Assembly (NCBI RefSeq): GCF_003311635.1
Contig: NZ_QEXL01000001.1
Coordinates: 236,900 to 300,899, forward strand
From: Novacetimonas cocois
GTDB taxonomy: Bacteria > Pseudomonadota > Alphaproteobacteria > Acetobacterales > Acetobacteraceae
Reading direction: 5' to 3'
Length of the DNA: 64,000 nucleotides
A program made the translations under genes and the position numbers. Each line of letters opens with the position of its first letter. Position 1 is the first letter of the stretch. Below the pieces are notes generated by a model, which was not told where the DNA came from, ran no database searches, and saw only the letters and a list, made by a program, of their open reading frames with translations. Positions 1,405-49,588 of this stretch are shown piece after piece.

Positions 1405-2390
1405 CCGGCGGTGAAGGCGCCCCACGCATGCCCGCAACGTCCGGCGCGGTGGCAGGGGACATGCCGGTTGCTGCGGCGTACCTTGCCGCGCCGGGGTTCG
1501 AGGCGCCGCTGGAACACGAACTGCATCGGCAGGGCGTGGATGTCGTCTGGCACGGTCGCCTTGCGCTGACGTCCGCACCGCCGGTGCGCAGCGCCTGGGC
1601 GCTGGAGACATGGACCGCGCCACGGATATGCGACGTGCCCTCCATCAAGGGGGCGGCGCGTGACCTGCGCGCGATACAGCGCAACTGGGCCGGGTATGCG
1701 CCGGACCTGCATCGCCGCTCCGCGCTGATTGCGCAGAACCTGCCCCCGCTGAGCGCACGGCCGCTGGTTTTTCCCTCCCTCCCGCCGCAGGGGCATCTCG
1801 GGGCATGGACGCTGCTGTCCGCCGACAGGATGCTGCTGTCGCCGCGCAAGACCTCGCCCTTCGTCAATGGGGAGGTCCATTTCGTGGAGGACCGGCAGGG
1901 GCCGCCATCGCGCGCCTATCTCAAGCTGTGGGAGGCCTTCACGCGTCTGGGGCGCTGGCCCGGGAAGGGGGAGACGTGCCTTGATCTTGGCGCTTCGCCG
2001 GGGGGATGGACGTGGGTGGCCGCGCGGTGCGGGGCGGAGGTGATCGCGGTGGATCGCGCCGATCTCGACCCGCGCGTCGCGGCGATGCCGGGGGTGAGCA
2101 CACGTCGCGAAAGCGCCTTCGGCCTTGATCCCGCGACGCTTCCGCCCGTGGACTGGCTGCTGTCGGACATCATCGCCTATCCCGCGCGCCTGCTGGGGCT
2201 GGCGCGGCGCTGGATCGAAAGCGGCCGGGCCGCGCGGATGGTCCTGACCATAAAGTTCCAGGGCGAAACCGACCATGACACGGCGGAGCAGTTCGCGGCC
2301 CTGCCGGGCGGCACGGTGCGGCATCTGTGGAACAACAAGCACGAACTGACATTCTTCTGGACGCGCGAAGGCACGCCGCAGGTCACATAG
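1401..2390 (+). CDS. RlmM-like 23S rRNA 2'-O-methyltransferase
   Basis: A 329-residue SAM-dependent methyltransferase of the FtsJ/RrmJ fold with an N-terminal extension, as in RlmM, which methylates the 2'-O of C2498 in 23S rRNA. The SAM-binding loop is DLGASPGGWTW (195-205). The K-D-K-E catalytic tetrad can be read: K175 in AYLKLWEA, D256 in LLSDII, K285 in LTIKFQ and E315 in NKHELTFF. The ATG at 1401 overlaps the stop of the DUF423 gene by four bases, which decides the start; the much longer upstream open frame is not needed. The substrate assignment is by family resemblance only. Confidence 0.8.
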   Translation: MTGGEGAPRMPATSGAVAGDMPVAAAYLAAPGFEAPLEHELHRQGVDVVWHGRLALTSAPPVRSAWALETWTAPRICDVPSIKGAARDLRAIQRNWAGYAPDLHRRSALIAQNLPPLSARPLVFPSLPPQGHLGAWTLLSADRMLLSPRKTSPFVNGEVHFVEDRQGPPSRAYLKLWEAFTRLGRWPGKGETCLDLGASPGGWTWVAARCGAEVIAVDRADLDPRVAAMPGVSTRRESAFGLDPATLPPVDWLLSDIIAYPARLLGLARRWIESGRAARMVLTIKFQGETDHDTAEQFAALPGGTVRHLWNNKHELTFFWTREGTPQVT

Positions 2391-2406
2391 GCGCCGCGCG
2401 GGCGGA

Positions 2407-2724
2407 TCAGGACGGGGGGGCGCGACGACGGCGCCAACGTTCGATCAGGTATTCGCCCGCATGGACGATCCCGATGGCGATCACGCAGCAGACAAGGGCG
2501 ACGGCCATGATGATGGTGCGTTCGCGATCGGTCTCGTCCGCCGCGCCCGTCAGGCGATAGACCATCAGCCACATGTCCGATCCTGCGATGCGGTCGACAA
2601 GGGCCGCGACCGTGGCGCTGTAGCGCAGGCTGGCCATCAGCAGGACCGTCAGCACCAGAACACAGCCTGTTTTCAGCAATGTGCGCGTCAGGGGAACACC
2701 GGAAGTTGCGTCGTCATTCTTCAT
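2407..2724 (-). CDS. small two-helix membrane protein
   Basis: A 105-residue protein. Hydrophobic segments at about residues 16-33 and 70-92 suggest two transmembrane helices, followed by a very basic tail (ERWRRRRAPPS). No family recognised. It is convergent with the RlmM-like gene (16-bp gap) and divergent from the thioredoxin-like gene. The overall pattern resembles the small inner-membrane proteins of acetic acid bacteria, but no function can be read from the sequence. Confidence 0.6.
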   Translation of the reverse strand: MKNDDATSGVPLTRTLLKTGCVLVLTVLLMASLRYSATVAALVDRIAGSDMWLMVYRLTGAADETDRERTIIMAVALVCCVIAIGIVHAGEYLIERWRRRRAPPS

Positions 2725-2797
2725 GCGGCTAGGCTACCTTGCTTTCGGGACCCCAGGGTGGGCAACCGGGAAAATGGCAGGATGGGGACAGGCTGGC

Positions 2798-3337
2798 ATG
2801 AATAATCCGTCGGGACGTGTGTCACGCGCCATCAGGCATACGGGCCTGCTGGCGGGCGCGGCGGTGGCAATGGTGTCATGGGTCACGCATCTGGCCCGGG
2901 CGGATACCCCGCCGCAGGTGGGCGACCTCAGGCCCACAGTCCCGGCGCAGCCTTACGGACCGGCCGCCGGGGCGCAGGACCAGATATCAAAGGCCTTTGA
3001 GGAGGCGCGGGCCACAGGGCGCAAGGTGCTGCTGGACTTTGGCGGGAACTGGTGTCCCGACTGCCGGATCCTGTCGGGCCTGATGGAGGATCCCGCCGTC
3101 GCCCCGTGGATCGCGCGGCATTTCGTGGTGGCGATGATCAATGTCGAACGCATGAATACCAATCTGGAGTTCCTGACGCAACGCGGCCTTCACATAGAGG
3201 CGGTGCCCACGGTCCTGATCCTGACGGCGCAGGGAAAACTGCTCAATGCCGACGGACTGACGGCGCTGGGGGATGCGCGTTCCATGTCCTCGCAGGCGGT
3301 AATCGACCTGCTGGCCAGCTGGGACGCGCGCACCTGA
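2798..3337 (+). CDS. exported thioredoxin-like protein (CPDC)
   Basis: A 179-residue protein with an N-terminal hydrophobic segment (about 14-34, ending HLARA), so it is probably periplasmic or membrane-anchored. A thioredoxin fold follows: VLLDFGGNWCPDCRIL carries the redox pair C86/C89 in a CPDC motif, and IEAVPTVLIL supplies the cis-proline. Likely a thiol-disulphide oxidoreductase; the partner is unknown. The start at 2798 was chosen because it places the signal segment directly at the N-terminus; an earlier in-frame start would overlap the divergent gene. Confidence 0.8.
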   Translation: MNNPSGRVSRAIRHTGLLAGAAVAMVSWVTHLARADTPPQVGDLRPTVPAQPYGPAAGAQDQISKAFEEARATGRKVLLDFGGNWCPDCRILSGLMEDPAVAPWIARHFVVAMINVERMNTNLEFLTQRGLHIEAVPTVLILTAQGKLLNADGLTALGDARSMSSQAVIDLLASWDART

Positions 3338-3358
3338 CGCGACGCAGGGGGCTTTTCC

Positions 3359-5047
3359 TTATTCCCCCGGCAGCGCGATGTTGAGGTAACGCGCGGCCTC
3401 GCGCACCGTTTCCTCCAGCGCGCCGGGCTGGAATGGGGAGGTCAGGCCCGCCTGGCGCACCAGGTCGGTAAAGGGGGCGGACCCGCCGCGTTCGCACAGG
3501 GCCACGTAATCGCGCAGCGCCCGGTCCTGATCGACGCGGCTGCGTTGCCAGAACTGCAGCGCGCAGCACAGCGCCAGCGCGTAATCGATGTAATAGAAGG
3601 GCGAGCGGTAGATATGCCCCTGCGCCTGCCACCGGCCACCGGCCGACGGATGGGCGATTCCACCATAATCGCGCCATGGCAGGTAACGACGCTCCATCTC
3701 GCGCCACAGTTCGTGGCGCTGGGCCGGGGTCATGTCCGGGTGGGCATAGATTTCATGCTGGAAATGATCCACGCACACGCCATAGGGCAGGAAGGAGAGC
3801 GAACCGATCAGGTGCATCTGCCGGTAACGTTCCGCCTCGCCCTGCGCGACCATCAGGTCCATGTGGGGCCATGTCAGGAATTCCAGCGCCATGGAATTGA
3901 TTTCCGCCGCATCCATCGTCGGCCACAACAGGTCCACCGCAGGCAGCCCGCGACTTTTCCAGTTCTGGTAGGCATGGCCCATTTCATGGGTGAACACGTT
4001 GATGTCGTGCTGCGTCCCGTTGAAATTGGCAAAGATGAAGGGCATCCCCACCGTGGGGAAGGAGGTGCAGAACCCGCCGCCCGCCTTGCCTTCGCGGTTC
4101 TGCAGGTCAAGGAACCCGCCTTCGCGCATCTGGCGGTAGAACGGACCCAGATCGCCGCCCATGCGGTCAAACATCACCTGCGCCTGCTGCACCAGCACGT
4201 CATGGCCGCCAATGGGGCGTGGATTTCCCATGGGGTCAATCAGCGGCTCGTCCCATGAATACAGGCATTCCCACCCCATCGTGGCGCGGCGGCGTTCAAG
4301 GATGCGCTGCACCAGCGGGACGACATGCGTGCGGACTTCCTCGCGAAAGCGGGCGACATCCTGCGGGCCGTAATCCACCCGCCGCATCCGGCGATAGGCC
4401 AGCGCGGTATAGGCGTCATAGCCAAGGGCGGTGGCCATGTCGGCGCGGACATGCACCAGACGGTCGAACAGCGTGTCGAGCTGCGTCCCGTTCGTGGCGA
4501 AGAATTCCCATCGCACCCGCTCCGCCTGTTCGCGGGTGGCGCGGTCAGTGCTTTCGGCATAGGGGGCAAGGCCGGACAGGTTGACGGTTTCCCCCCCGAT
4601 CGACAGCCGGGCAGAGGCGATCAGCGCGGTATATTCCCCGCTCAGCCGGGCTTCCTCCTCCAGCGCGTCGGCGATTCGCGAATCAAATGTCGTGATGTCC
4701 GTCCGCCACAGCTCCAGCGTATGTGGACTGAGCGCGGCGCCCACGGCCTGCTGGTCCGGATCATCAAGCAGCCGCCGCTTGATCGCGACCTCGAACGCCG
4801 TGACATAGGGCGTCAGGGAATCCGCGTAATCACGTTCCCCCTTATTGGCGGCGGAAGTCGTATCCTGCGAAAAACGCAGGTCCGTCATCGCGGACCAGCT
4901 TTCGTAATCCCGCCGGATCGTATCGAACAGCGTCAGCGCGTCGGCGCGCCGGTCCTGATCTAGAAGGGTGGAAACCTGTCCGAATCTGAGGGCAAGCCTT
5001 TCCCTGGTCGGGCGGGGGAAATCAAGTTCGCTGAATCGTAATGCCAT
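3359..5047 (-). CDS. M3 family oligoendopeptidase
   Basis: A 562-residue zinc metallopeptidase of family M3 (oligoendopeptidase F-like, non-PepF branch). The zinc site HEMGH is at 354-358 (FTHEMGHAYQ), and the third ligand is probably E382 in DAAEINSMALEF. Length and the long helical N-terminal half are normal for the family. No signal peptide is seen, so it should degrade short peptides in the cytoplasm. It is followed on the same strand by an OPT transporter gene about 115 bp upstream, which suggests linked peptide uptake and breakdown. Confidence 0.9.
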   Translation of the reverse strand: MALRFSELDFPRPTRERLALRFGQVSTLLDQDRRADALTLFDTIRRDYESWSAMTDLRFSQDTTSAANKGERDYADSLTPYVTAFEVAIKRRLLDDPDQQAVGAALSPHTLELWRTDITTFDSRIADALEEEARLSGEYTALIASARLSIGGETVNLSGLAPYAESTDRATREQAERVRWEFFATNGTQLDTLFDRLVHVRADMATALGYDAYTALAYRRMRRVDYGPQDVARFREEVRTHVVPLVQRILERRRATMGWECLYSWDEPLIDPMGNPRPIGGHDVLVQQAQVMFDRMGGDLGPFYRQMREGGFLDLQNREGKAGGGFCTSFPTVGMPFIFANFNGTQHDINVFTHEMGHAYQNWKSRGLPAVDLLWPTMDAAEINSMALEFLTWPHMDLMVAQGEAERYRQMHLIGSLSFLPYGVCVDHFQHEIYAHPDMTPAQRHELWREMERRYLPWRDYGGIAHPSAGGRWQAQGHIYRSPFYYIDYALALCCALQFWQRSRVDQDRALRDYVALCERGGSAPFTDLVRQAGLTSPFQPGALEETVREAARYLNIALPGE

Positions 5048-5161
5048 GCCCTGATGCTGCCATCATAAGACGTCGAGGTCTATCGCCCGGAATCGGACGA
5101 ATGCTGCGTCCCGACCGTCGCCATCCGGAGCACAGATGGCGGCGCAGGGCGAGTCGGCTAC

Positions 5162-7099
5162 CTATCGCGCACGCAGGACATAGCGGATAAACCACACGCA
5201 CATCCCTGCGAAAACCACCGCGCCGGCCATTCCCGGCACGATGGGGGGAACGCCCGCTGGCAGGATCGACAGCGCGCTGTCCCGCCCGGCGAATCCCGCG
5301 ACAGCCGACAGCGCGACTCCCATCAGGCTTTCACCCACGATCAGCCCGGACGCCAGCATCGTGCCAACCTGCGAGGACCCGGTGGCGGAGGGGACGCGGC
5401 GTCGGTTGCATATCCATCCCACCAGCGCGCCCACCGCCAGGGTGACGGTCACGGCCGGCGGCAGGTAGATGCCGATCCCCACCGCCAGCGGCGGCAGCGA
5501 ACGGCCCCGGCGGCGCAGCAGCAGGTCGGTCGCGATGGTCACGACGGCAAGCACCCCGCCAATGGCAAGCATGTTCCAGTCCAGCTGATGGAGGAAGATG
5601 CCCGATGCGATCATCATCAGCAGTGCGGGCTGCGGGGCTGCCAGCGCGCGTGTCGGGTCCATGCCCGGATGCGGCAGGTACCCGACAAAGCCATAGGTCT
5701 GGTAAAGGATGTTCAGCACCGGCGGGATCACCAGCGCGCCGGTCGCGCATCCGATCAGCAGCGCGACCTGCTGGCGCCATGGCGTGGCGCCCACCAGCTG
5801 TCCTGTCTTGAGGTCCTGCAGGTTGTCGTTGGAAATCGCGGCGGACGCGATCAGCGCCGACAGGATGTACAGGCAGAACGCGATGCCGCCATGTTCGCCA
5901 ACCGATGCGGGAAACAGTCCCAGCGCGCGCATGCCGATGAAGAGCGAGGCGATGAGGATCACCGCCACGATGGCGATGCCCGAAATGGGGGAGGAGGAGG
6001 ACCCCACGATTCCCGCCATGTATCCACACGTCGCCGCCACGAGGAAGCCGATCAGCATGCAGCAGGCCATTCCCGTCAGCGCCAGCCCGATGGTTCCCGC
6101 GGTCACGCCGCCAAACGGCGCAAGGAAGGCGATGAACATGCCCGTCAGGACGATGCTGATCCCCGCCGCCAGCAGCCCCACCTGCCGCAAGGGCAGGTCG
6201 CCGCCGTCATCGTGCCTGCCGCCGGCAGGCGCCGCGCGCAGGCTGGCGCGGATGCCGCCGATGATCGGTCCCATCATGCATCCCAGCGTCCAGATGGAGG
6301 CGATGGCAATCATGCCCGCCCCGATGAAGCGCACGTCATGCATCCATACGCTGGTGGCGTGCGCGTCAGGGCCAAGGTTCGCGGGGTTCGCCTCATGTGC
6401 CGTCAGGAACGGCACGAAGCCCCCCCACGCCAGCACCGCGCCCAGCAGCATCGCAAGCCCGCCCTCGATTCCCACCAGATAGCCCGCGCCCAGCATCGCC
6501 AGCGAAAAGCCGCATGATCCGCGAAAGATCGCATGTCCCCATGACAGCGTCACGGATGCCTCGTCCGCCAGCAGCCGCAGCCCCCCGGATACGAAGGTGA
6601 CGACCGCCGCGATCACGCCCCCGCCCGTCAACGCCCGCAGGGCCACGGGACTGGTGTCCTTTTCCCCGGCCTTGAGGATTTCGGCCGCCGCTACCCCCTC
6701 GGGATAGGGCAGGGCGCTTTCCGTCACCATGGCGCGGCGCAGGGGAATGGTGAACAGCACCCCCGTCATGCCGCCCGCAGCCGACAGGAGGGCGGTTTCG
6801 ATGAACGGAAAATGCTGCCAGTAGCCGACCATGATCAGCGCGGGGAGGGAGGCGAACACGCATGACAGCGTCCCCGCGGCGGAGGCCTGCGTCTGGACGA
6901 TGTTGTTTTCAAGGATGCTGGAACCGCCCATCGCGCGCAGGACCGCCATCGAAATGACGGCGGCGGGAATGGAGGACGCGACGGTCAGCCCCACCTTCAG
7001 CCCGAGATAGATGTTCGATGCGGTAAAGACGAGGGTGATGAGCGCCCCGAGGATGATGCCGCGCAGCGACAGTTCCCGGGCTCTGCGCGTCGCGTTCAT
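5162..7099 (-). CDS. OPT family oligopeptide transporter
   Basis: A 645-residue polytopic membrane protein with some 15 hydrophobic stretches. N-terminal sequences such as LTVASSIPAAVISMAVLR and NIVQTQASAAG, and later SSSPISGIAIVAVI, are typical of prokaryotic OPT (oligopeptide transporter) proteins. These are proton-coupled importers of small peptides or metal chelates. The M3 peptidase gene lies downstream on the same strand. The true substrate cannot be read from the sequence. Confidence 0.88.
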   Translation of the reverse strand: MNATRRARELSLRGIILGALITLVFTASNIYLGLKVGLTVASSIPAAVISMAVLRAMGGSSILENNIVQTQASAAGTLSCVFASLPALIMVGYWQHFPFIETALLSAAGGMTGVLFTIPLRRAMVTESALPYPEGVAAAEILKAGEKDTSPVALRALTGGGVIAAVVTFVSGGLRLLADEASVTLSWGHAIFRGSCGFSLAMLGAGYLVGIEGGLAMLLGAVLAWGGFVPFLTAHEANPANLGPDAHATSVWMHDVRFIGAGMIAIASIWTLGCMMGPIIGGIRASLRAAPAGGRHDDGGDLPLRQVGLLAAGISIVLTGMFIAFLAPFGGVTAGTIGLALTGMACCMLIGFLVAATCGYMAGIVGSSSSPISGIAIVAVILIASLFIGMRALGLFPASVGEHGGIAFCLYILSALIASAAISNDNLQDLKTGQLVGATPWRQQVALLIGCATGALVIPPVLNILYQTYGFVGYLPHPGMDPTRALAAPQPALLMMIASGIFLHQLDWNMLAIGGVLAVVTIATDLLLRRRGRSLPPLAVGIGIYLPPAVTVTLAVGALVGWICNRRRVPSATGSSQVGTMLASGLIVGESLMGVALSAVAGFAGRDSALSILPAGVPPIVPGMAGAVVFAGMCVWFIRYVLRAR

Positions 7100-7225
7100 G
7101 CGGATGGCTGGCCTGCTTGCTGTGGAAGGGGGATATCCGTCATGCCATGCCCGGACGGGAAGGCACGCAGCCCCGCCGCGCGATGCGGGCGGCGGGGGCG
7201 TATCTGTCGGGGCGGCAACGGGGGA

Positions 7226-7819
7226 TCAGAGCTTGTGGAACGTGGGCATCACGAGATGCGCGCGGTTGAAGTCAAGCTGCGCCTGCGTCAGCTGGAAGCC
7301 GATTTCGATATGGTACTGGTCGCTGTGGATGCGCCGTGAAATCGGCAGCGTGATGGGAATGTTGCGCGTGCTGGTGATTTTCTGAAGCTCGCCCCCGTCG
7401 AATTCGATGTGGGCGATGAATTCCTTCTTGCTCTTGATTTCGCCGTTATAGACCACCGCCACGAAATACGGGATGTTGACGAAATTGACCTTCGACGCCG
7501 GACCGCGCACGACATGCAGGCCGACCTGCATGTTGGTGACGACCGTCCTGTGGGCCCCGTCCGCGCATGAGCCGACGACTTCGCGCAGGGCGGAGCGCAC
7601 CACGAGGTGCGACAGGTCATGCTCGCTGCCGGTGTACTGATAGTAATCAGCCGCCTCGCCAGGAATCTCCACGACAGGGCAGGCCGGGGCGAAGGCGATC
7701 GAATCCGACTGGGTCTGGCAACCGCTCGCCAGAAGCGGAAGGGCGAGCAGGGCGGCCGCGCGCGTGAAGGTGGCTGAACGGAACGAAAGAAACACGCGGG
7801 AAAGGGAATGGGGAATCAT
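7226..7819 (-). CDS. putative lipoprotein, unknown function
   Basis: A 197-residue protein. A basic N-terminus and a hydrophobic core (AAALLALPLLASGC) end in a lipobox with the lipidated cysteine at C34. The mature part contains an even, beta-rich sequence without motifs I recognise. It looks like a conserved acetic-acid-bacterial lipoprotein. The gene stands alone between the OPT transporter and ispH, and the ispH start lies about 275 bp away in divergent orientation. Confidence 0.7.
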   Translation of the reverse strand: MIPHSLSRVFLSFRSATFTRAAALLALPLLASGCQTQSDSIAFAPACPVVEIPGEAADYYQYTGSEHDLSHLVVRSALREVVGSCADGAHRTVVTNMQVGLHVVRGPASKVNFVNIPYFVAVVYNGEIKSKKEFIAHIEFDGGELQKITSTRNIPITLPISRRIHSDQYHIEIGFQLTQAQLDFNRAHLVMPTFHKL

Positions 7820-8093
7820 GCGGGGGTCCGGGCTTTCGTACTCGACATGGAATGACTGGATAATGGCGGTTGAAAGGGGCGAAAGGCAATCGGGTAACCA
7901 GAAGAAGGATATGTGGATGCCCCGTCATGGCGGGGAGGACATATATAGGAGAATAGGCTAGAATGAACGGGAAATGGCTTGCGCCATCGCCATGCTTTGC
8001 GTAGGGCCGGATCATTGCATCGGGATGCGGGACCGGACTTCAGCAGATCATGGCCCGTATCCTATACCGCCCGCCGGATGTTTGGGGAACACC

Positions 8094-9095
8094 ATGCCCG
8101 ACCAGATGATTCAGACACCAGATGCCCTCGCCCCCGTTGACGCATCGCCCCGCCTGCTCAAGGTCCTGCTCGCGGGGCCACGCGGCTTCTGCGCGGGGGT
8201 CGATCGCGCGATCCGCGTGGTTGAAGAGGCGATCCGCCGTTATGGCGCGCCCGTCTATGTGCGTCATGAAATCGTCCACAACCGCACGGTCGTGGAGGCG
8301 CTGGAGGCGCAGGGCGCGATTTTCGTGGAAGAGCTGGACGAGGTTCCGTCGGACGGACACGTGGTCTTTTCCGCCCATGGCGTGCCCAAGACCGTCCCGG
8401 CGGAAGCCATGCGCCGCAACCTGCTGTATCTGGATGCGACCTGCCCCCTCGTCTCCAAGGTGCACCGGGAGGCGGAACGCCATTTTGCCGATGGTGGCCC
8501 TGAAAGCCGCCATATCCTGATGATCGGCCATGCCGGCCATCCGGAGGTCGTCGGCACGATGGGGCAGCTGCCCGCCGGGGCGGTCACCCTGATCAACGAC
8601 GCGGAAGAGGCCCGCACGGTACAGCCGGCCGATCCCACGCGCCTTGCCTTCATCACCCAGACGACGCTGTCGGTCGATGACACGGCGGAAATCGTCGATA
8701 TCCTGCGCGACCGCTTCCCCCTGATCGAGGGGCCGAAGCGCGAGGACATCTGCTATGCCACCACAAACCGGCAGGAAGCGGTCAAGGCGATCGCGCCGGG
8801 ATGTGACCTGGTGATCGTGATCGGATCGCCCAACTCCTCCAACTCCCAGCGGCTGCGGGAAGTGGCCGAACGCAGTGGCGCGCCGCGCGCCCTGCTGGTG
8901 CCGCGCCTCAACGCGCTGGACTGGTCGGTGCTGGACGGGGTGGAAACGCTGGGCATCACGGCCGGGGCGTCCGCGCCTGAATCGCTGGTGCAGGAAATGG
9001 TCGCGGCCCTTGCCAAGCGCTTCACGCTTGAAATCGAGGAACGTACGGTCAAGGAAGAAAACGTGACCTTCCGCCTGCCTGCGCCGCTCGGCTGA
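8094..9095 (+). CDS. ispH: IspH, HMBPP reductase (LytB)
   Basis: A 333-residue 4-hydroxy-3-methylbut-2-enyl diphosphate reductase, the last step of the MEP isoprenoid pathway. The three cluster cysteines are C33 ([13 protein letters not shown]), C117 (DATCPLVSK) and C220 ([10 protein letters not shown]), and the catalytic glutamate is E151 in [11 protein letters not shown]. The ATG at 8094 follows GGGGAA at a good distance; a longer frame from 7974 adds only non-homologous residues. thrB and rnhA follow closely in an ispH-thrB-rnhA order common in alphaproteobacteria. The [4Fe-4S] enzyme depends on Fe-S assembly such as the SUF system at 50 kb. Confidence 0.97.
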
Positions 9096-44489: not shown

Positions 44490-45332
44490 TCAGGCCGGGG
44501 CCGCGGCCCAGCTGTCGCCCGTCTGGATGGCGCGGCCATCGTCGCGCAGTTTTTCAAGATGTGCCCGCAGGTTGAGCGTCGCCGCCCGTCGCAGGCCGGG
44601 GCGCAGCCGGAAATAGGCGGCATCGACGATCTGTTCCACCGTGCGCGGCTGTGGCCGCAGCAGGGCGGCGATGCTTTCGTGGCGTGCAAGGCGATGCGCC
44701 ATCAGTCCCCGCATGCAGGTTTCGGGCTGTTCAATGGCCGGGCCATGGGCGGACAGCAGCAGGCGCGAGCCACGCCCGATCAGCCGCTCCATGCTGTCGA
44801 GGAACAGCTGCACCGATCCATGCGGGGCAGGGGGCACCAGAGTCGTGGACCATCCCATGACATGATCGCCGGTGAAGATGATGCCATCCCCGGTTTCAAG
44901 GCAGATATGATCCGTGGCATGGCCGGGCGTGTACAGCACCCGCAGCCCCGCGACCTCGTCCAGGTCATGCAGGCCCACATCGGGGGAGAAGGTGGGCTCG
45001 GCGCTGCTGTGCCAGGCATGTATCGAGGCACCGCTGCGTTGCGACAGGGGGGCGGCGCCGTCCAGATGGTCGTGATGGGTATGGGTCAGGATGATATGGG
45101 TCAGCCTGCGCCCGTTCAGCGCGCGCTCCACCGCGTCCAGATGCGCCGCGTCCGTGACGCCGGGATCGATGACGGCGGCGCCCCCGTCATGATCCACGAT
45201 CCACGTATTGGTGCCATTTCCCGTCATGGGGCCGGGATTGTTGGCGACAACACGGCGTATGCCCGCAGTGACGGGCAGCGCCTGACCATAGGGGGGCGGC
45301 GGTTCGACGACGCGCCAGTCATGGCGGGACAT
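44490..45332 (-). CDS. metallo-beta-lactamase-fold hydrolase
   Basis: A 280-residue MBL-fold protein with the metal motif THTHHDHLDG (H84, H86, D88, H89), then TPGHATDHI and IFTGDHVMG as further metal ligands. A C-terminal winged-helix-like region (about 235-275) ends the protein, the layout of LACTB2-like hydrolases. The start at 45332 leaves a 4-base gap to the upstream stop; a start at 45356 would overlap the PEP-carboxylase-like gene by 20 bases. The substrate is unknown. Confidence 0.82.
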   Translation of the reverse strand: MSRHDWRVVEPPPPYGQALPVTAGIRRVVANNPGPMTGNGTNTWIVDHDGGAAVIDPGVTDAAHLDAVERALNGRRLTHIILTHTHHDHLDGAAPLSQRSGASIHAWHSSAEPTFSPDVGLHDLDEVAGLRVLYTPGHATDHICLETGDGIIFTGDHVMGWSTTLVPPAPHGSVQLFLDSMERLIGRGSRLLLSAHGPAIEQPETCMRGLMAHRLARHESIAALLRPQPRTVEQIVDAAYFRLRPGLRRAATLNLRAHLEKLRDDGRAIQTGDSWAAAPA

Positions 45333-45336
45333 GGGA

Positions 45337-48144
45337 TTAGCCGAAAGCCCCGACATGGTGCATCACGCCCGTGCTGATTTCACGCACCAGCGCGAACAGG
45401 CGCTGCATGGGTTCGAATATTTCCGTATATTCGCGGGTATAGGCGCCTTCGTCACGCGGGCCGTGCGGTTCATGGAAATCCAGGTCAAAGCTGCGATCGG
45501 CGCGATAGGGGAAAATCTGTTCCAGTTCCTTGAGGACGCCGGGAATTTCCAGGCACAGGACCTTGGCCGTCAGCACGTCGCGGGTAAAGGCGTTGCGAGG
45601 CGCGAAATAGGGGATTTTCGTTGACAGCATCCATATCTGCTCGATCACCGCGATGCGGATGGCGTGCAGCAGCATCTCGTCGGCCTCCATCCGGGGGGCG
45701 TTGGGCCATGCATTGCGTAACGCCAGATGGTCGGACTGGATTCGGCGGAACATGGATTGCGTACTGGCCCAGAAATCCAGCCGTTCCAGCCCATGCATCA
45801 GCGTCAGGCATGCCTCCTGACGTTTCGGGTCCTGCTGCGACGTGGCGCGCTGCAGCCACATGTCCGGATCCAGCAGGCGGATCACCCCGCGCAGGACGCC
45901 ATCGCAGGAATGGGCCAGCGCATGGGCCGCGAAATCCAGCGCCCGGCGGAAGCGCGGACTGTCGGTGAGGTAGCGTTCGAACGTATCGGGATGGCGGGTC
46001 GCCGCCGTCCCCAGCCCCTGAAGCGTATTGGCGCACCATGCCAGCTGCTGGAGGATGGCATTGTTGGGAATGGCGCGCAGCTGGCTGGGATGGCGGATGC
46101 GCGTGGTGATGGCCGCGGCATCGCTCTGCCGGGCGGAGGGACGCGATCCCGTCTTGTCGATCAGCGACGGCCCGAACGCGCCAAGCAGCGCGGCATAGCC
46201 CGGATCTTCCACCAGTCCCGTCATGCCCCGCGCGATGGTGGAAAAGAAATCGGCTGAAAAGTCCGGCTCGTCATAAACCGGGTCCTCGTCGATGGAGGTC
46301 GGGGCGAAGGCGTGCTCTGCGATCACGCTGACCGTCGCATCGGCCAGAGGCTGGGTCCCGAACAGCAGGTAGCCATCGCCCCCCTGGAACGCCGTTTCCT
46401 CCCGCAGGCGGATGCCCGCCTGAAGGAAGCGCATGCGCGCGTGCGGCGGGGAGAGGTAGTCGAAACGTTCGGCAAGGCTGTAGGGATGCGCGCCGCGTCC
46501 GATGCTTTCCCCATGCGTGTCGAACAGGATCACCTCAACAAAGGCGAGGTCCCACTGCCGCAGCAGGTCGCAGATCTTCAGCCGCAGGCGTTCGATCAGG
46601 TAGGTCGCGGCCAGCTGCCCCACGTAACGCCCCGAATCGGAAAAGCCGAACTGCAGGCTCAGCTTGCGCGTGCGCTGCAGGTAGGCCCGCCAGTGCGGGG
46701 AGCGCAGGGCCTCCTCGATGACATGTTCGCCTTTTTCAAGCGCCTCCTGCGTTTCGAACAGGGGGGAGATCTCGATCATGTCCTCCACCCCCAGCAGGCG
46801 CGCCAGCCACAGCGCGGTCAGCAGGGTGTATCCGGTTTCCGTCTCCGCGATCAGGAAGCGGATGGGGGTGGTGCGGTCGATATGATGCAGGATCTGGCGC
46901 ACCGTCATCATCAGCCGCCCCGCCGTCGACTGTTCCACCAGCAGGGAGCCGAAATCGATGTCGATGGGCTGTGTCGTGCCCAGTGCCTCGTCAATCTGGG
47001 CGATCAGGGCGCGGCGCTGCACGTGGATGTCGGGATTGTCGGTGATGCCAAGCCGCTGGCGCGCGACGTTATGCAGCTGCGTCGAATTGAGGCGGACATG
47101 CGTATGCGCGGCCGACAGGCCATGCGCCATGAACCCCGCGCGCGCGATGGACAGCGTCATCTTGTCATCGGGAAGGGCCGCGTCGATGGCTTCCCCAAAG
47201 GCGGGAAGCAGTTCGTTGCTGCTGATCAGGGCCTCATCCCGCCGGTCGATCAGCACGCCGGCGAAATCCGCGACCGCCTGCGGGTCGGGGCTGTCCGGAC
47301 AGGCGGCGATCTGTGCCTCCACCGCGTCGGCCGCGCGCATCACGCGTTCCAGCAGATCGTTCACGGGGGGCGAGGTGACGGATGCTATCTGCCCGCGCAG
47401 GCGCGTCAGCTGCATGTGCTTCATGCGCAGCCGCAGCCGCAGCGTGTCCCACCATCCGATATCCGTGCGGCCGTCCGTGTCGTATCCGACCCAGCTTGTC
47501 ATGATGACCGGGCGCGGGATCAGCGTCACCCACAGCTGCGGCCAGTGGGTCCGTGCCTCGGTCAGGAGGATGCGCGTCAGGCGGTCCAGCGCGTTGCGCC
47601 CGCGCAGGATGGCCTGCGTCGCAAGGGTAAATTCCTCGTTCAGCGTGGGCGGCGCGGCGCGGCGGTGCGTCAGGAAGGCGGGGATGTCGGCGGGGGGCTG
47701 CTGCGGATTGTGCGTCGCCATGTCGGCAAGGCATTCATAGACCGGGTTCGCCAGCGCGAAGGTCGGATGGGCGGTAAACACGGCGGCAAAGCGGCTGCGT
47801 TCGGTCGCGGCGCGGAACCGGGCGATGGGAACGGGGCTGTCATTGGGATCCGGCTGCACGATTCGCCGCGCCACGTCGCGCATCCGCTCCTCGATCACCG
47901 CGTCATCCACGCCCCCGACATAGGCGGCGATGTGGCAGGCGCGATGGCCAAAGGCGCGATCGCGCAGCTGACGCACCCATTCCTCCAGCGCGTCGATCGA
48001 CAGCACGCCCCTGTCGATCTGCTGTCCGATGCTGCGTGCCAGCATCATGACGGGGTTGTCCGAAAGGGCCGGGATCGCCACCAGCTCCCTGGCCTGCTGC
48101 TGCAGCATGTCTGTCGCATGAGGGGCAGAGGCCTGAGACATCAT
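45337..48144 (-). CDS. PEP-carboxylase-like protein, altered site
   Basis: A 935-residue protein of the phosphoenolpyruvate carboxylase family. Recognisable features are VFTAHPTFAL (H126, the equivalent of E. coli H138), ISPLFETQEAL, LQFGFSDSGRYVGQLAATY and DTHGESIGRGAHP. Several catalytic positions differ: the lysine of SDSAKDAG is R506; in a gap-free alignment the HGRGG core (H579, R581) becomes D542 and H544; only the second arginine (R550) remains. The C-terminal RNTG is absent. CAGGA six bases before 48144 decides the start. It may be a diverged paralogue or a non-carboxylating relative. Confidence 0.75.
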   Translation of the reverse strand: MMSQASAPHATDMLQQQARELVAIPALSDNPVMMLARSIGQQIDRGVLSIDALEEWVRQLRDRAFGHRACHIAAYVGGVDDAVIEERMRDVARRIVQPDPNDSPVPIARFRAATERSRFAAVFTAHPTFALANPVYECLADMATHNPQQPPADIPAFLTHRRAAPPTLNEEFTLATQAILRGRNALDRLTRILLTEARTHWPQLWVTLIPRPVIMTSWVGYDTDGRTDIGWWDTLRLRLRMKHMQLTRLRGQIASVTSPPVNDLLERVMRAADAVEAQIAACPDSPDPQAVADFAGVLIDRRDEALISSNELLPAFGEAIDAALPDDKMTLSIARAGFMAHGLSAAHTHVRLNSTQLHNVARQRLGITDNPDIHVQRRALIAQIDEALGTTQPIDIDFGSLLVEQSTAGRLMMTVRQILHHIDRTTPIRFLIAETETGYTLLTALWLARLLGVEDMIEISPLFETQEALEKGEHVIEEALRSPHWRAYLQRTRKLSLQFGFSDSGRYVGQLAATYLIERLRLKICDLLRQWDLAFVEVILFDTHGESIGRGAHPYSLAERFDYLSPPHARMRFLQAGIRLREETAFQGGDGYLLFGTQPLADATVSVIAEHAFAPTSIDEDPVYDEPDFSADFFSTIARGMTGLVEDPGYAALLGAFGPSLIDKTGSRPSARQSDAAAITTRIRHPSQLRAIPNNAILQQLAWCANTLQGLGTAATRHPDTFERYLTDSPRFRRALDFAAHALAHSCDGVLRGVIRLLDPDMWLQRATSQQDPKRQEACLTLMHGLERLDFWASTQSMFRRIQSDHLALRNAWPNAPRMEADEMLLHAIRIAVIEQIWMLSTKIPYFAPRNAFTRDVLTAKVLCLEIPGVLKELEQIFPYRADRSFDLDFHEPHGPRDEGAYTREYTEIFEPMQRLFALVREISTGVMHHVGAFG

Positions 48145-48292
48145 GAGGTCCTGTCGTGAAAATTGCATAATGTATTAGCGTCCCATGTTCGACACGGCTT
48201 CGCAATCGCCACGCGGTTGTGTTCACGTCTATTTGGACGATCCCTTGCCCGACACCTTGGGGATGGAGACACACAATGGTATCAAAAGGTTC

Positions 48293-49588
48293 ATGAACAA
48301 CATTCCACAGGCCGACAGGGATGCGTGGCGCGTCCTGCAACGTTACAAATGGTCGGCGACAGGGCTGTTGATCGGCATGGCCGGCCTGACGGTGGCGGGC
48401 TATGCCCTTCCGGCGTCGGGGGTGATGGCCGATCACGCGTGGCTCGACGTCCTGCGGTCGGGGGCAAAGGCCGGGGTGGTCGGCGGACTTGCGGACTGGT
48501 TCGCGGTCACCGCCCTGTTCCGCCGTCCCATGGGCCTGCCCATCCCGCATACCGCCATCCTGCCGGCGCAGCAGGAACGCCTGGCCCAGGCGCTGGGGCG
48601 GTTCGTCTCCACCAATGTCTTTACCGAAAAGGACGTGGCGGCGGCGATGCAGCGCATCGACCTGCCCAGCGTGATCGGGGACATCCTGCAGGACCCCGAA
48701 ACGGTGGCCACCGTAAACCGCGCGGTCATCGGCGCGGTGCCCCATGTCCTCGACCGGCTGGAGGACGGGCGGGCCAGCAACGCGATCTCGCGCCTGATCC
48801 CCAGCCTGCTGGGGGGGGAGGAAATCGCCCCGATCGTGATTCGCAGCATGCGCGCGCTGGTCGATGGGGACCGCCATCAGGAGGTCCTGTCCTTCCTGCT
48901 GCTGCGCCTCAAGGACGGGCTGAAATCCAAGGAGCAGTCGCTGCGCCAGATGATCGAGGAGCGGGTGCGCGAACAGGGCGGCCGCCTGCTGGGATGGGCG
49001 ATCGGCGGTTCCATCGCGACGAAGGTCCTGACCGCGGCGAGCGAGGAGCTCGATCGCATCGACCCGCAGAACTCCGACCTGCGCGAAGGTTTCACCACCT
49101 GGGTCCGTTCGGAGATCGACCGGATCGAACAGGACCCGCAACGCCGGCGGGAACTGACGGGCACGATCATGGGTGTCCTGTCGCATGACAGCATCCGGGG
49201 ATGGAGCGGCGACGTCTGGCATCGCCTGCGCCGGGTCATAGAGACCGATGTCGCGCGCGGAGAGGAAGGCTGGACCGCCTCCATCGTGCGCGACGCGCTG
49301 CATCGCCTGGCGGAACAGATGTATCATGATCCCCAGATGCGCCAGCGCGTGACCGGCACGGCCCAGCGCATGGTCAACGGCAGCCTGCCGTTCCTGCGTG
49401 ACAGCATGTCACGTTTTATTGCTTCGGTCGTGGCGGGGTGGGATGCCAACGCGCTCAGCGACCGGCTGGAACTGCGCGTGGGGCGCGATCTGCAGTATGT
49501 ACGCTTTAACGGAACGCTGGTCGGGTTTCTGGCCGGATGCGGCCTGTCCGTGTTACTACAACTGATATTCGGCACCGGCATCGGATAG
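48293..49588 (+). CDS. DUF445 domain membrane protein
   Basis: A 431-residue protein of the DUF445 (YjiN) family. TM1 is about residues 20-40 and another helix lies at the extreme C-terminus (FLAGCGLSVLLQLIFG). The signature GGLADWFAVTALFRRPMGLPIPHTAI-type is present as GGLADWFAVTALFRRPMGLP. The long middle region is helical. The ATG at 48293 with AAAAGG upstream was chosen. It is divergent from the PEP-carboxylase-like gene. The family's role is not known. Confidence 0.85.
   Translation: MNNIPQADRDAWRVLQRYKWSATGLLIGMAGLTVAGYALPASGVMADHAWLDVLRSGAKAGVVGGLADWFAVTALFRRPMGLPIPHTAILPAQQERLAQALGRFVSTNVFTEKDVAAAMQRIDLPSVIGDILQDPETVATVNRAVIGAVPHVLDRLEDGRASNAISRLIPSLLGGEEIAPIVIRSMRALVDGDRHQEVLSFLLLRLKDGLKSKEQSLRQMIEERVREQGGRLLGWAIGGSIATKVLTAASEELDRIDPQNSDLREGFTTWVRSEIDRIEQDPQRRRELTGTIMGVLSHDSIRGWSGDVWHRLRRVIETDVARGEEGWTASIVRDALHRLAEQMYHDPQMRQRVTGTAQRMVNGSLPFLRDSMSRFIASVVAGWDANALSDRLELRVGRDLQYVRFNGTLVGFLAGCGLSVLLQLIFGTGIG

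Follow-up and report, generated by a model that had tools for sequence, protein, structure and literature searches.

The HGRGG loop and the lysine of the SDSxK motif are treated as signatures of phosphoenolpyruvate carboxylase (PEPC; EC 4.1.1.31). In the general mechanism, as outlined in the excerpts of PMC10176493 and PMC8100219, a glutamate and an aspartate hold the metal, bicarbonate attacks, a conserved histidine acts in the carboxyphosphate step (PMC10176493), and the enolate captures CO2; the latter source, a review of 2020, distinguishes four main types of PEPC. The gene described here lies on the reverse strand of the window, the whole stretch of 64,000 nucleotides of Novacetimonas cocois DNA that was analysed (contig NZ_QEXL01000001.1, positions 236,900 to 300,899), and encodes a relative of PEPC in which both signatures are replaced. 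With a probability of about two in three, its product is a catalytically competent, non-canonical PEPC of a separate deep branch, with a rewired active site, which would be the oxaloacetate-supplying carboxylase of the organism.

Active site and fold of the PEPC-like protein

Canonical positions are those of E. coli Ppc (NC_000913; numbers checked), and positions in the window protein are counted in its 943-residue open reading frame, eight higher than in the original prediction, which had been made from the sequence alone (its R506, D542 and H544 are R514, D550 and H552 here). The roles given to numbered residues follow work on the E. coli and maize enzymes, with H138 and R587 as catalytic residues and R396, R699 and R713 as substrate arginines; H138 and R587 are presumably tied to the carboxyphosphate step.

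Conservation was followed in two alignments. The first holds 106 distinct sequences, the window protein and 105 others; it omits L002 (a copy of the window), the repeats L116, L118, L120 and L121, the partial L030 and identical sequences, and makes no use of the canonical columns of L112 and L114, which stand in wrong reading frames. The second, class-wide set holds 72: the window protein, 57 loci from the class Alphaproteobacteria, and 14 from Acetobacteraceae. The 57 are the sequences obtained from the 66 family-assigned genomes of the class other than the organism's own; the remaining nine are assigned by score alone, four of them (G061, G172, G384, G193) at more than 1000 bits with the family profile, G043 at 408 bits with the window protein, and G248, G250, G381 and G390 by the pattern of their PF00311 scores only. 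The canonical comparison set consists of 31 PEPCs, 30 of them alphaproteobacterial (from 39 canonical genomes) and one from E. coli; two are cut short. The gene and its motifs are as follows, with counts from the class-wide set:

45337..48168, reverse strand: gene of the putative non-canonical PEPC, an uninterrupted frame of 943 residues, or 935 from the probable start ATG at 48144
47758..47775, reverse strand: TAHPTF, residues 132-137; H134 is the retained H138 and F137 replaces E141 (His and Phe each 72/72)
47092..47094, reverse strand: R359, the retained R396 of E. coli (72/72)
46750..46767, reverse strand: SPLFET, residues 468-473; E472 is the retained metal ligand E506 (72/72)
46627..46641, reverse strand: SDSGR, residues 510-514; D511 is the retained metal ligand D543 (72/72) and R514 replaces K546 (72/72)
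46492..46524, reverse strand: FDTHGESIGRG, residues 549-559, in place of FHGRGGSIGRG; D550, T551, H552 and E554 stand for H579, G580, R581 and G583, and R558 is the retained R587 (72/72)
46129..46149, reverse strand: GSRPSAR, residues 674-680; R676 and R680 are the retained R699 and R703 (72/72 each)
46075..46077, reverse strand: R698 in LRAIP, the retained R713 of E. coli (72/72)
45340..45342, reverse strand: terminal Gly943, the preceding RNT being lost (Gly 72/72)

The replacements are nearly fixed. K546→R, G580→T, R581→H and E141→F are found in all members of both sets, G583→E in 106/106 of the first and 71 of the 72 in the second (the last has D), while the H579 position holds D in 105 and N in one of the first set, and D in 52, N in 19 and S in one of the second; D394 is replaced by H in 69 and by Q in three of the class-wide sequences. 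The replacement set occurs in 0/31 canonical PEPCs, each of these positions keeping its canonical residue there (Lys546, Glu141 and HGRGG in 31/31). The alignment with E. coli Ppc thus bears out the changes to K546, H579 and R581 and the reading of TAHPTE as TAHPTF that had been noted from the sequence; the accompanying statement that most catalytic signatures are replaced went too far, since H138, R396, E506, D543, R587, R699, R703 and R713 are kept, like the terminal glycine, in 106/106 and 72/72. Columns conserved in both family and canonical sets (at least 97% and 93%, respectively) are identical in 39 cases and different in 19. At the C-terminus the protein ends in GAFG, so that the RNTG end is indeed missing, with the terminal glycine still aligned; the commonest family members end in GAFG or similar, and 29 of the 31 canonical proteins in RNSG, RNTG or KNTG, the other two being those cut short. 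At the aspartate site, the column of Lys773 has Lys in 0/106 and 0/72, and that of R832 has Arg in 98/106 in one alignment and Asp in 67/72 in the other; the last alignment columns are unsteady.

The protein is also longer than usual by about the 50 residues first estimated, at 943 or 935 residues versus 883 in E. coli Ppc. The start at 48144 (Met9 of the frame) is the likelier one, because 12 of 13 Komagataeibacter loci have no open frame ahead of residue 6, and this ATG is preceded, at a distance of 4 nucleotides, by an AGGA. In Pfam, the protein matches PF00311 alone, over residues 418-562 only (E-value 1.4e-13), with 50.2 bits against a gathering score of 22.4; with NF000584, the curated PEPC equivalog, it scores 55.2 bits against a cut-off of 815, and 30/30 family members match that model at 1e-3 (best E-value 6.3e-30). 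Judged by sequence, the protein belongs to the PEPC superfamily and stands outside the canonical family, because the defining K546, HGRGG, RNTG or RNSG end and NF000584 score are lacking.

A model built with AlphaFold2 from 40 family sequences (mean predicted local distance difference test, pLDDT, 82; predicted template modelling score 0.86) has its best solved-structure matches, over the whole length, in canonical PEPC: maize 5vyj (Z-score 27.8, root-mean-square deviation (rmsd) 4.3, 757 aligned) and E. coli 1jqn (Z 27.5, rmsd 4.8, 758 aligned). The predicted fold is that of PEPC from end to end. The global overlay by Foldseek is looser (template modelling score, TM, 0.56, rmsd about 10, 16-17% identity; against 1jqn, E-value 7e-18, TM 0.56, 17% identity). 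The next matches are archaeal-type PEPC (PF14010; 3odm), a partial likeness at Z 14.8 and rmsd 3.7 over 459 residues, and pyruvate kinases at Z 12.3 and below; 3odm has 525 residues versus 943 here, and PF14010 is unmatched in a protein that matches only PF00311. pLDDT falls below 50 in residues 230-236, 674-689 and 699-705, among others; the model cannot settle the active-site geometry, since the stretch 674-689 contains R676 and R680.

The closest named records found, in Novacetimonas hansenii, N. maltaceti and Gluconacetobacter entanii, are 91-92% identical (records very near the window were possibly omitted), and full-length homologues occur in named genomes, with no internal stop in any of the matches listed. 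The ratio of nonsynonymous to synonymous substitution rates (dN/dS) is 0.077-0.105 against three near relatives, 0.18 against one Komagataeibacter, and 0.30 against Gluconacetobacter diazotrophicus, where dS is near 0.73; the gene is therefore under purifying selection. As far as the alignments go, the replacements mark an intact, strictly conserved branch of PEPC and not a one-off.

Extent of the branch and other carboxylases

A quick tree of 61 proteins, built by maximum likelihood, places the 36 family rows together on one side of a branch with a support of 100 in the Shimodaira-Hasegawa-like approximate likelihood ratio test, and the 17 canonical rows are grouped in the same way; the branch between the family and the other rows measures 2.76 changes per column. 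The place of the remaining eight rows, other PEPC-like proteins, is unsure because the intervening branches are very long.

PF00311 is matched in 113 of 387 alphaproteobacterial genomes, of which 67 (28 taxonomic families) are assigned to the non-canonical family and 39 (25 families) have canonical PEPC; G278 is counted under both types, G367 holds a fragment, seven genomes have other PEPC-like types, and G177 has a broken-looking canonical gene. The last (contig 22, 1471-2279) resembles a canonical ppc split into three adjoining pieces, which lie in at least two open frames, possibly by decay or assembly error. Across the phylum, the family profile is matched at 1e-10 in 142 of 397 genomes; the 31 that score above 800 bits all belong to the class of the window, and the remaining 111 reach at most 61.5 bits.

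The other PEPC-like proteins, eight in seven genomes (L114, L183, L207, L208, L209, L210 and L167) and mostly on long branches, resemble the family in keeping H138, E506, D543, R587, R699 and R713 in 8/8; they differ from it in that none has Thr-His at 580-581 and all fall outside it in the tree, and their K546 and H579 positions vary. One genome (G365, locus L167) has two adjacent, divergent PEPC-like genes on the reverse strand (2086-5412 and 5514-8987), open frames of 1109 and 1158 residues in which neither HGRGG nor DTHGE is found. Further non-canonical types of PEPC thus seem to exist.

The gene had been proposed to be a paralogue, which holds in the sense that it has its own branch within the PEPC family; that it duplicates a canonical ppc is not supported: in the organism's genome (a draft of 75 contigs, completeness 100) it is the only match to PF00311. 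A canonical ppc elsewhere in the genome is accordingly rejected, as is an archaeal-type PEPC as hidden carboxylase, with no match to PF14010 at 1e-3. Pyruvate carboxylase has no match at 1e-200, two weaker matches reaching only 1e-158; ATP-dependent phosphoenolpyruvate carboxykinase (ATP-PEPCK) has none at 1e-20, no search having been made for the GTP-dependent enzyme; and isocitrate lyase has none.

In seven taxonomic families, some sampled genomes have the non-canonical type and others canonical PEPC, with no double holder. Full-length pyruvate carboxylase is found in 65 of the 387 class genomes and, by Fisher tests that ignore phylogeny, overlaps with the family in two genomes versus 11.3 expected (p=1.9e-4), as canonical PEPC does in one versus 6.8 (p=0.004). 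When 200 Acetobacteraceae genomes are classed by score (not individually read, the lowest matches not being printed), 142 have only the non-canonical type, four only the canonical one, four both (G440, G481, G524 and G559), and 50 neither; the non-canonical type is thus present in 146 of the 150 with a PF00311 match and is the sole such protein in 142. One genus, g17, has it in three members by score and canonical PEPC in a fourth (G488). Pyruvate carboxylase, sought at 1e-200, is counted in nine of the 200 (one of the nine is split and falls below the cut-off), three of them among the 146 family holders and six among the 54 non-holders (p 0.013). Both the alternation with canonical PEPC and the rarity of joint occurrence with pyruvate carboxylase point to a shared task, the making of oxaloacetate; the pattern supports this role and is not decisive.

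Catalysis, alternatives and neighbouring genes

The retained metal site, histidine and arginines, together with the nearly fixed replacements, describe a working, rewired enzyme. In the mechanism that we infer for it, Mg2+ on E472 and D511 would hold phosphoenolpyruvate; R359, R698, R676 and R680, with R514 in the place of K546, would handle its phosphate and carboxylate, R581 now being H552; bicarbonate would attack the phosphate; H134 and R558 would assist in the breakdown of carboxyphosphate; and CO2 would be captured by the enolate of pyruvate to yield oxaloacetate.

PEPC was reportedly purified from Acetobacter aceti in 1979. PEPC of acetic acid bacteria also appears in the excerpts of several papers: aspartate and malate inhibit a purified Acetobacter PEPC that is sold commercially (PMC5259782, which cites Benziman 1969 on phosphoenolpyruvate carboxylation in A. 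xylinum), PEPC activity was measured with a kit in G. xylinus CGMCC 2955 (PMC4047042), and PEPC and malic enzyme are given as the anaplerotic enzymes of A. pasteurianus 386B, two in all (PMC6915089). These reports are relevant because the PF00311 protein of acetic acid bacteria is nearly always of the non-canonical type, as counted above. The titles and abstract openings covered by a non-exhaustive literature search contain no account of the subfamily and assign no activity to its genes. Zymomonas ZMO1496 was considered as a possible characterized member, and nothing is claimed for it.

Several observations weigh against an oxaloacetate-making PEPC. K546, H579 and R581 are all replaced at once, and the published activities, as excerpted, are tied to no sequence of the family. 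The commercial Acetobacter enzyme is inhibited by aspartate and malate, yet the family has no lysine at position 773; the excerpt of PMC5259782 does not say which gene encodes that enzyme. The PEPC gene of A. pasteurianus 386B is a frameshifted pseudogene in the 2017 NCBI annotation (excerpt of PMC6915089) and would therefore not be indispensable in that strain, to which the point is confined; in Gluconobacter oxydans, ppc (GOX0102) is expressed at a low level and may not matter in the wild type (excerpt of PMC6191907). The organism's own genome has two malic-enzyme matches. Oxaloacetate can also come from ATP-PEPCK, an enzyme present in 122 of the 200 Acetobacteraceae genomes and in two of three sampled genomes of the organism's genus, so that the PEPC-like gene is not everywhere the sole enzyme linking phosphoenolpyruvate and oxaloacetate. 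As for co-occurrence, shared ancestry is uncorrected in the Fisher tests; the control pair, canonical PEPC and pyruvate carboxylase, is not significantly exclusive (four genomes versus 6.6 expected, p=0.18); all three enzymes are missing from 223 of the 387 class genomes, so that lacking other carboxylases is not rare; and in an eighth taxonomic family, f63, the sole holder in the class sample carries both types. The ATP-PEPCK count, the control pair and the double holder of f63 weigh on the physiological role more than on whether the enzyme is active.

A rival reading is an active enzyme of changed chemistry or substrate, which would keep the Mg-enolate half of the site and have the phosphate and bicarbonate half (K546, H579, R581, G583) rebuilt for another acceptor or enol phosphate. 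The nearly fixed replacements are concentrated in the HGRGG loop and the SDSxK motif, a long branch (2.76 changes per column) sets the family apart from the other rows, and both types are kept in four Acetobacteraceae genomes and one other genome of the class. Such a protein would represent a separate enzyme type with the PEPC fold, fixed across much of Alphaproteobacteria, in which DTHGE and the arginine perform different chemistry, for example another activation of bicarbonate or the use of another enol-phosphate substrate. Both the changed chemistry and a separate type defined by it are nevertheless rather unlikely, as H138 and R587 are invariant, the type alternates with canonical PEPC in seven families and seldom overlaps with pyruvate carboxylase, and no general partner emerges among the five window neighbours to which the neighbour survey was directed. 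The two nearest of these are:

44490..45356, reverse strand: metallo-beta-lactamase-fold hydrolase gene with a BLACT_WH domain, downstream of the PEPC-like frame and overlapping it by 20 nucleotides
48185-49588, forward strand: DUF445 gene, divergent, starting 16 nucleotides from the PEPC-like frame

The hydrolase gene adjoins the PEPC-like gene in Novacetimonas, Komagataeibacter, most loci of the Gluconacetobacter group and a few others, with a match in 36 of 171 loci (which include repeats and short loci; in L090 it is not adjacent). A neighbour so limited by lineage, matched in only 36/171 loci, gives no ground for a shared operon function, and that reading was set aside. The head-to-head arrangement with DUF445 recurs in many acetic acid bacteria, more than the hydrolase does.

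The original prediction had further raised a regulatory pseudoenzyme, which, like a structural protein devoid of catalysis, would account for the loss of the canonical K546, H579 and R581; this is improbable, since all 72 class-wide sequences retain the catalytic histidine, the two metal ligands and five key arginines, and a partner PEPC to be regulated is missing from the organism's own genome and, by score, from 142 of the 146 Acetobacteraceae genomes that hold the family. Gene decay or an artefact of sequencing, which the odd motifs and the one published frameshifted copy, in A. pasteurianus 386B, might bring to mind, can be dismissed, as was argued at the outset, given the intact frame, the full-length homologues in named genomes, the lack of an internal stop in any of the matches listed, and the dN/dS of 0.077-0.105 to near relatives.

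A catalytically competent, non-canonical PEPC is thus the preferred reading, and its interest lies in the existence, in many genomes of one class, of conserved and apparently working relatives that do without the signature HGRGG and SDSxK lysine. Through them, nature offers a test of how much of the active site is really required for the carboxyphosphate mechanism, residue by residue. For acetic acid bacteria, in which this is usually the only PF00311 protein (142 of 150, by score), the finding bears on metabolic models; for the superfamily, it would add a further type to the four main ones named in the excerpt of the 2020 review (PMC8100219).

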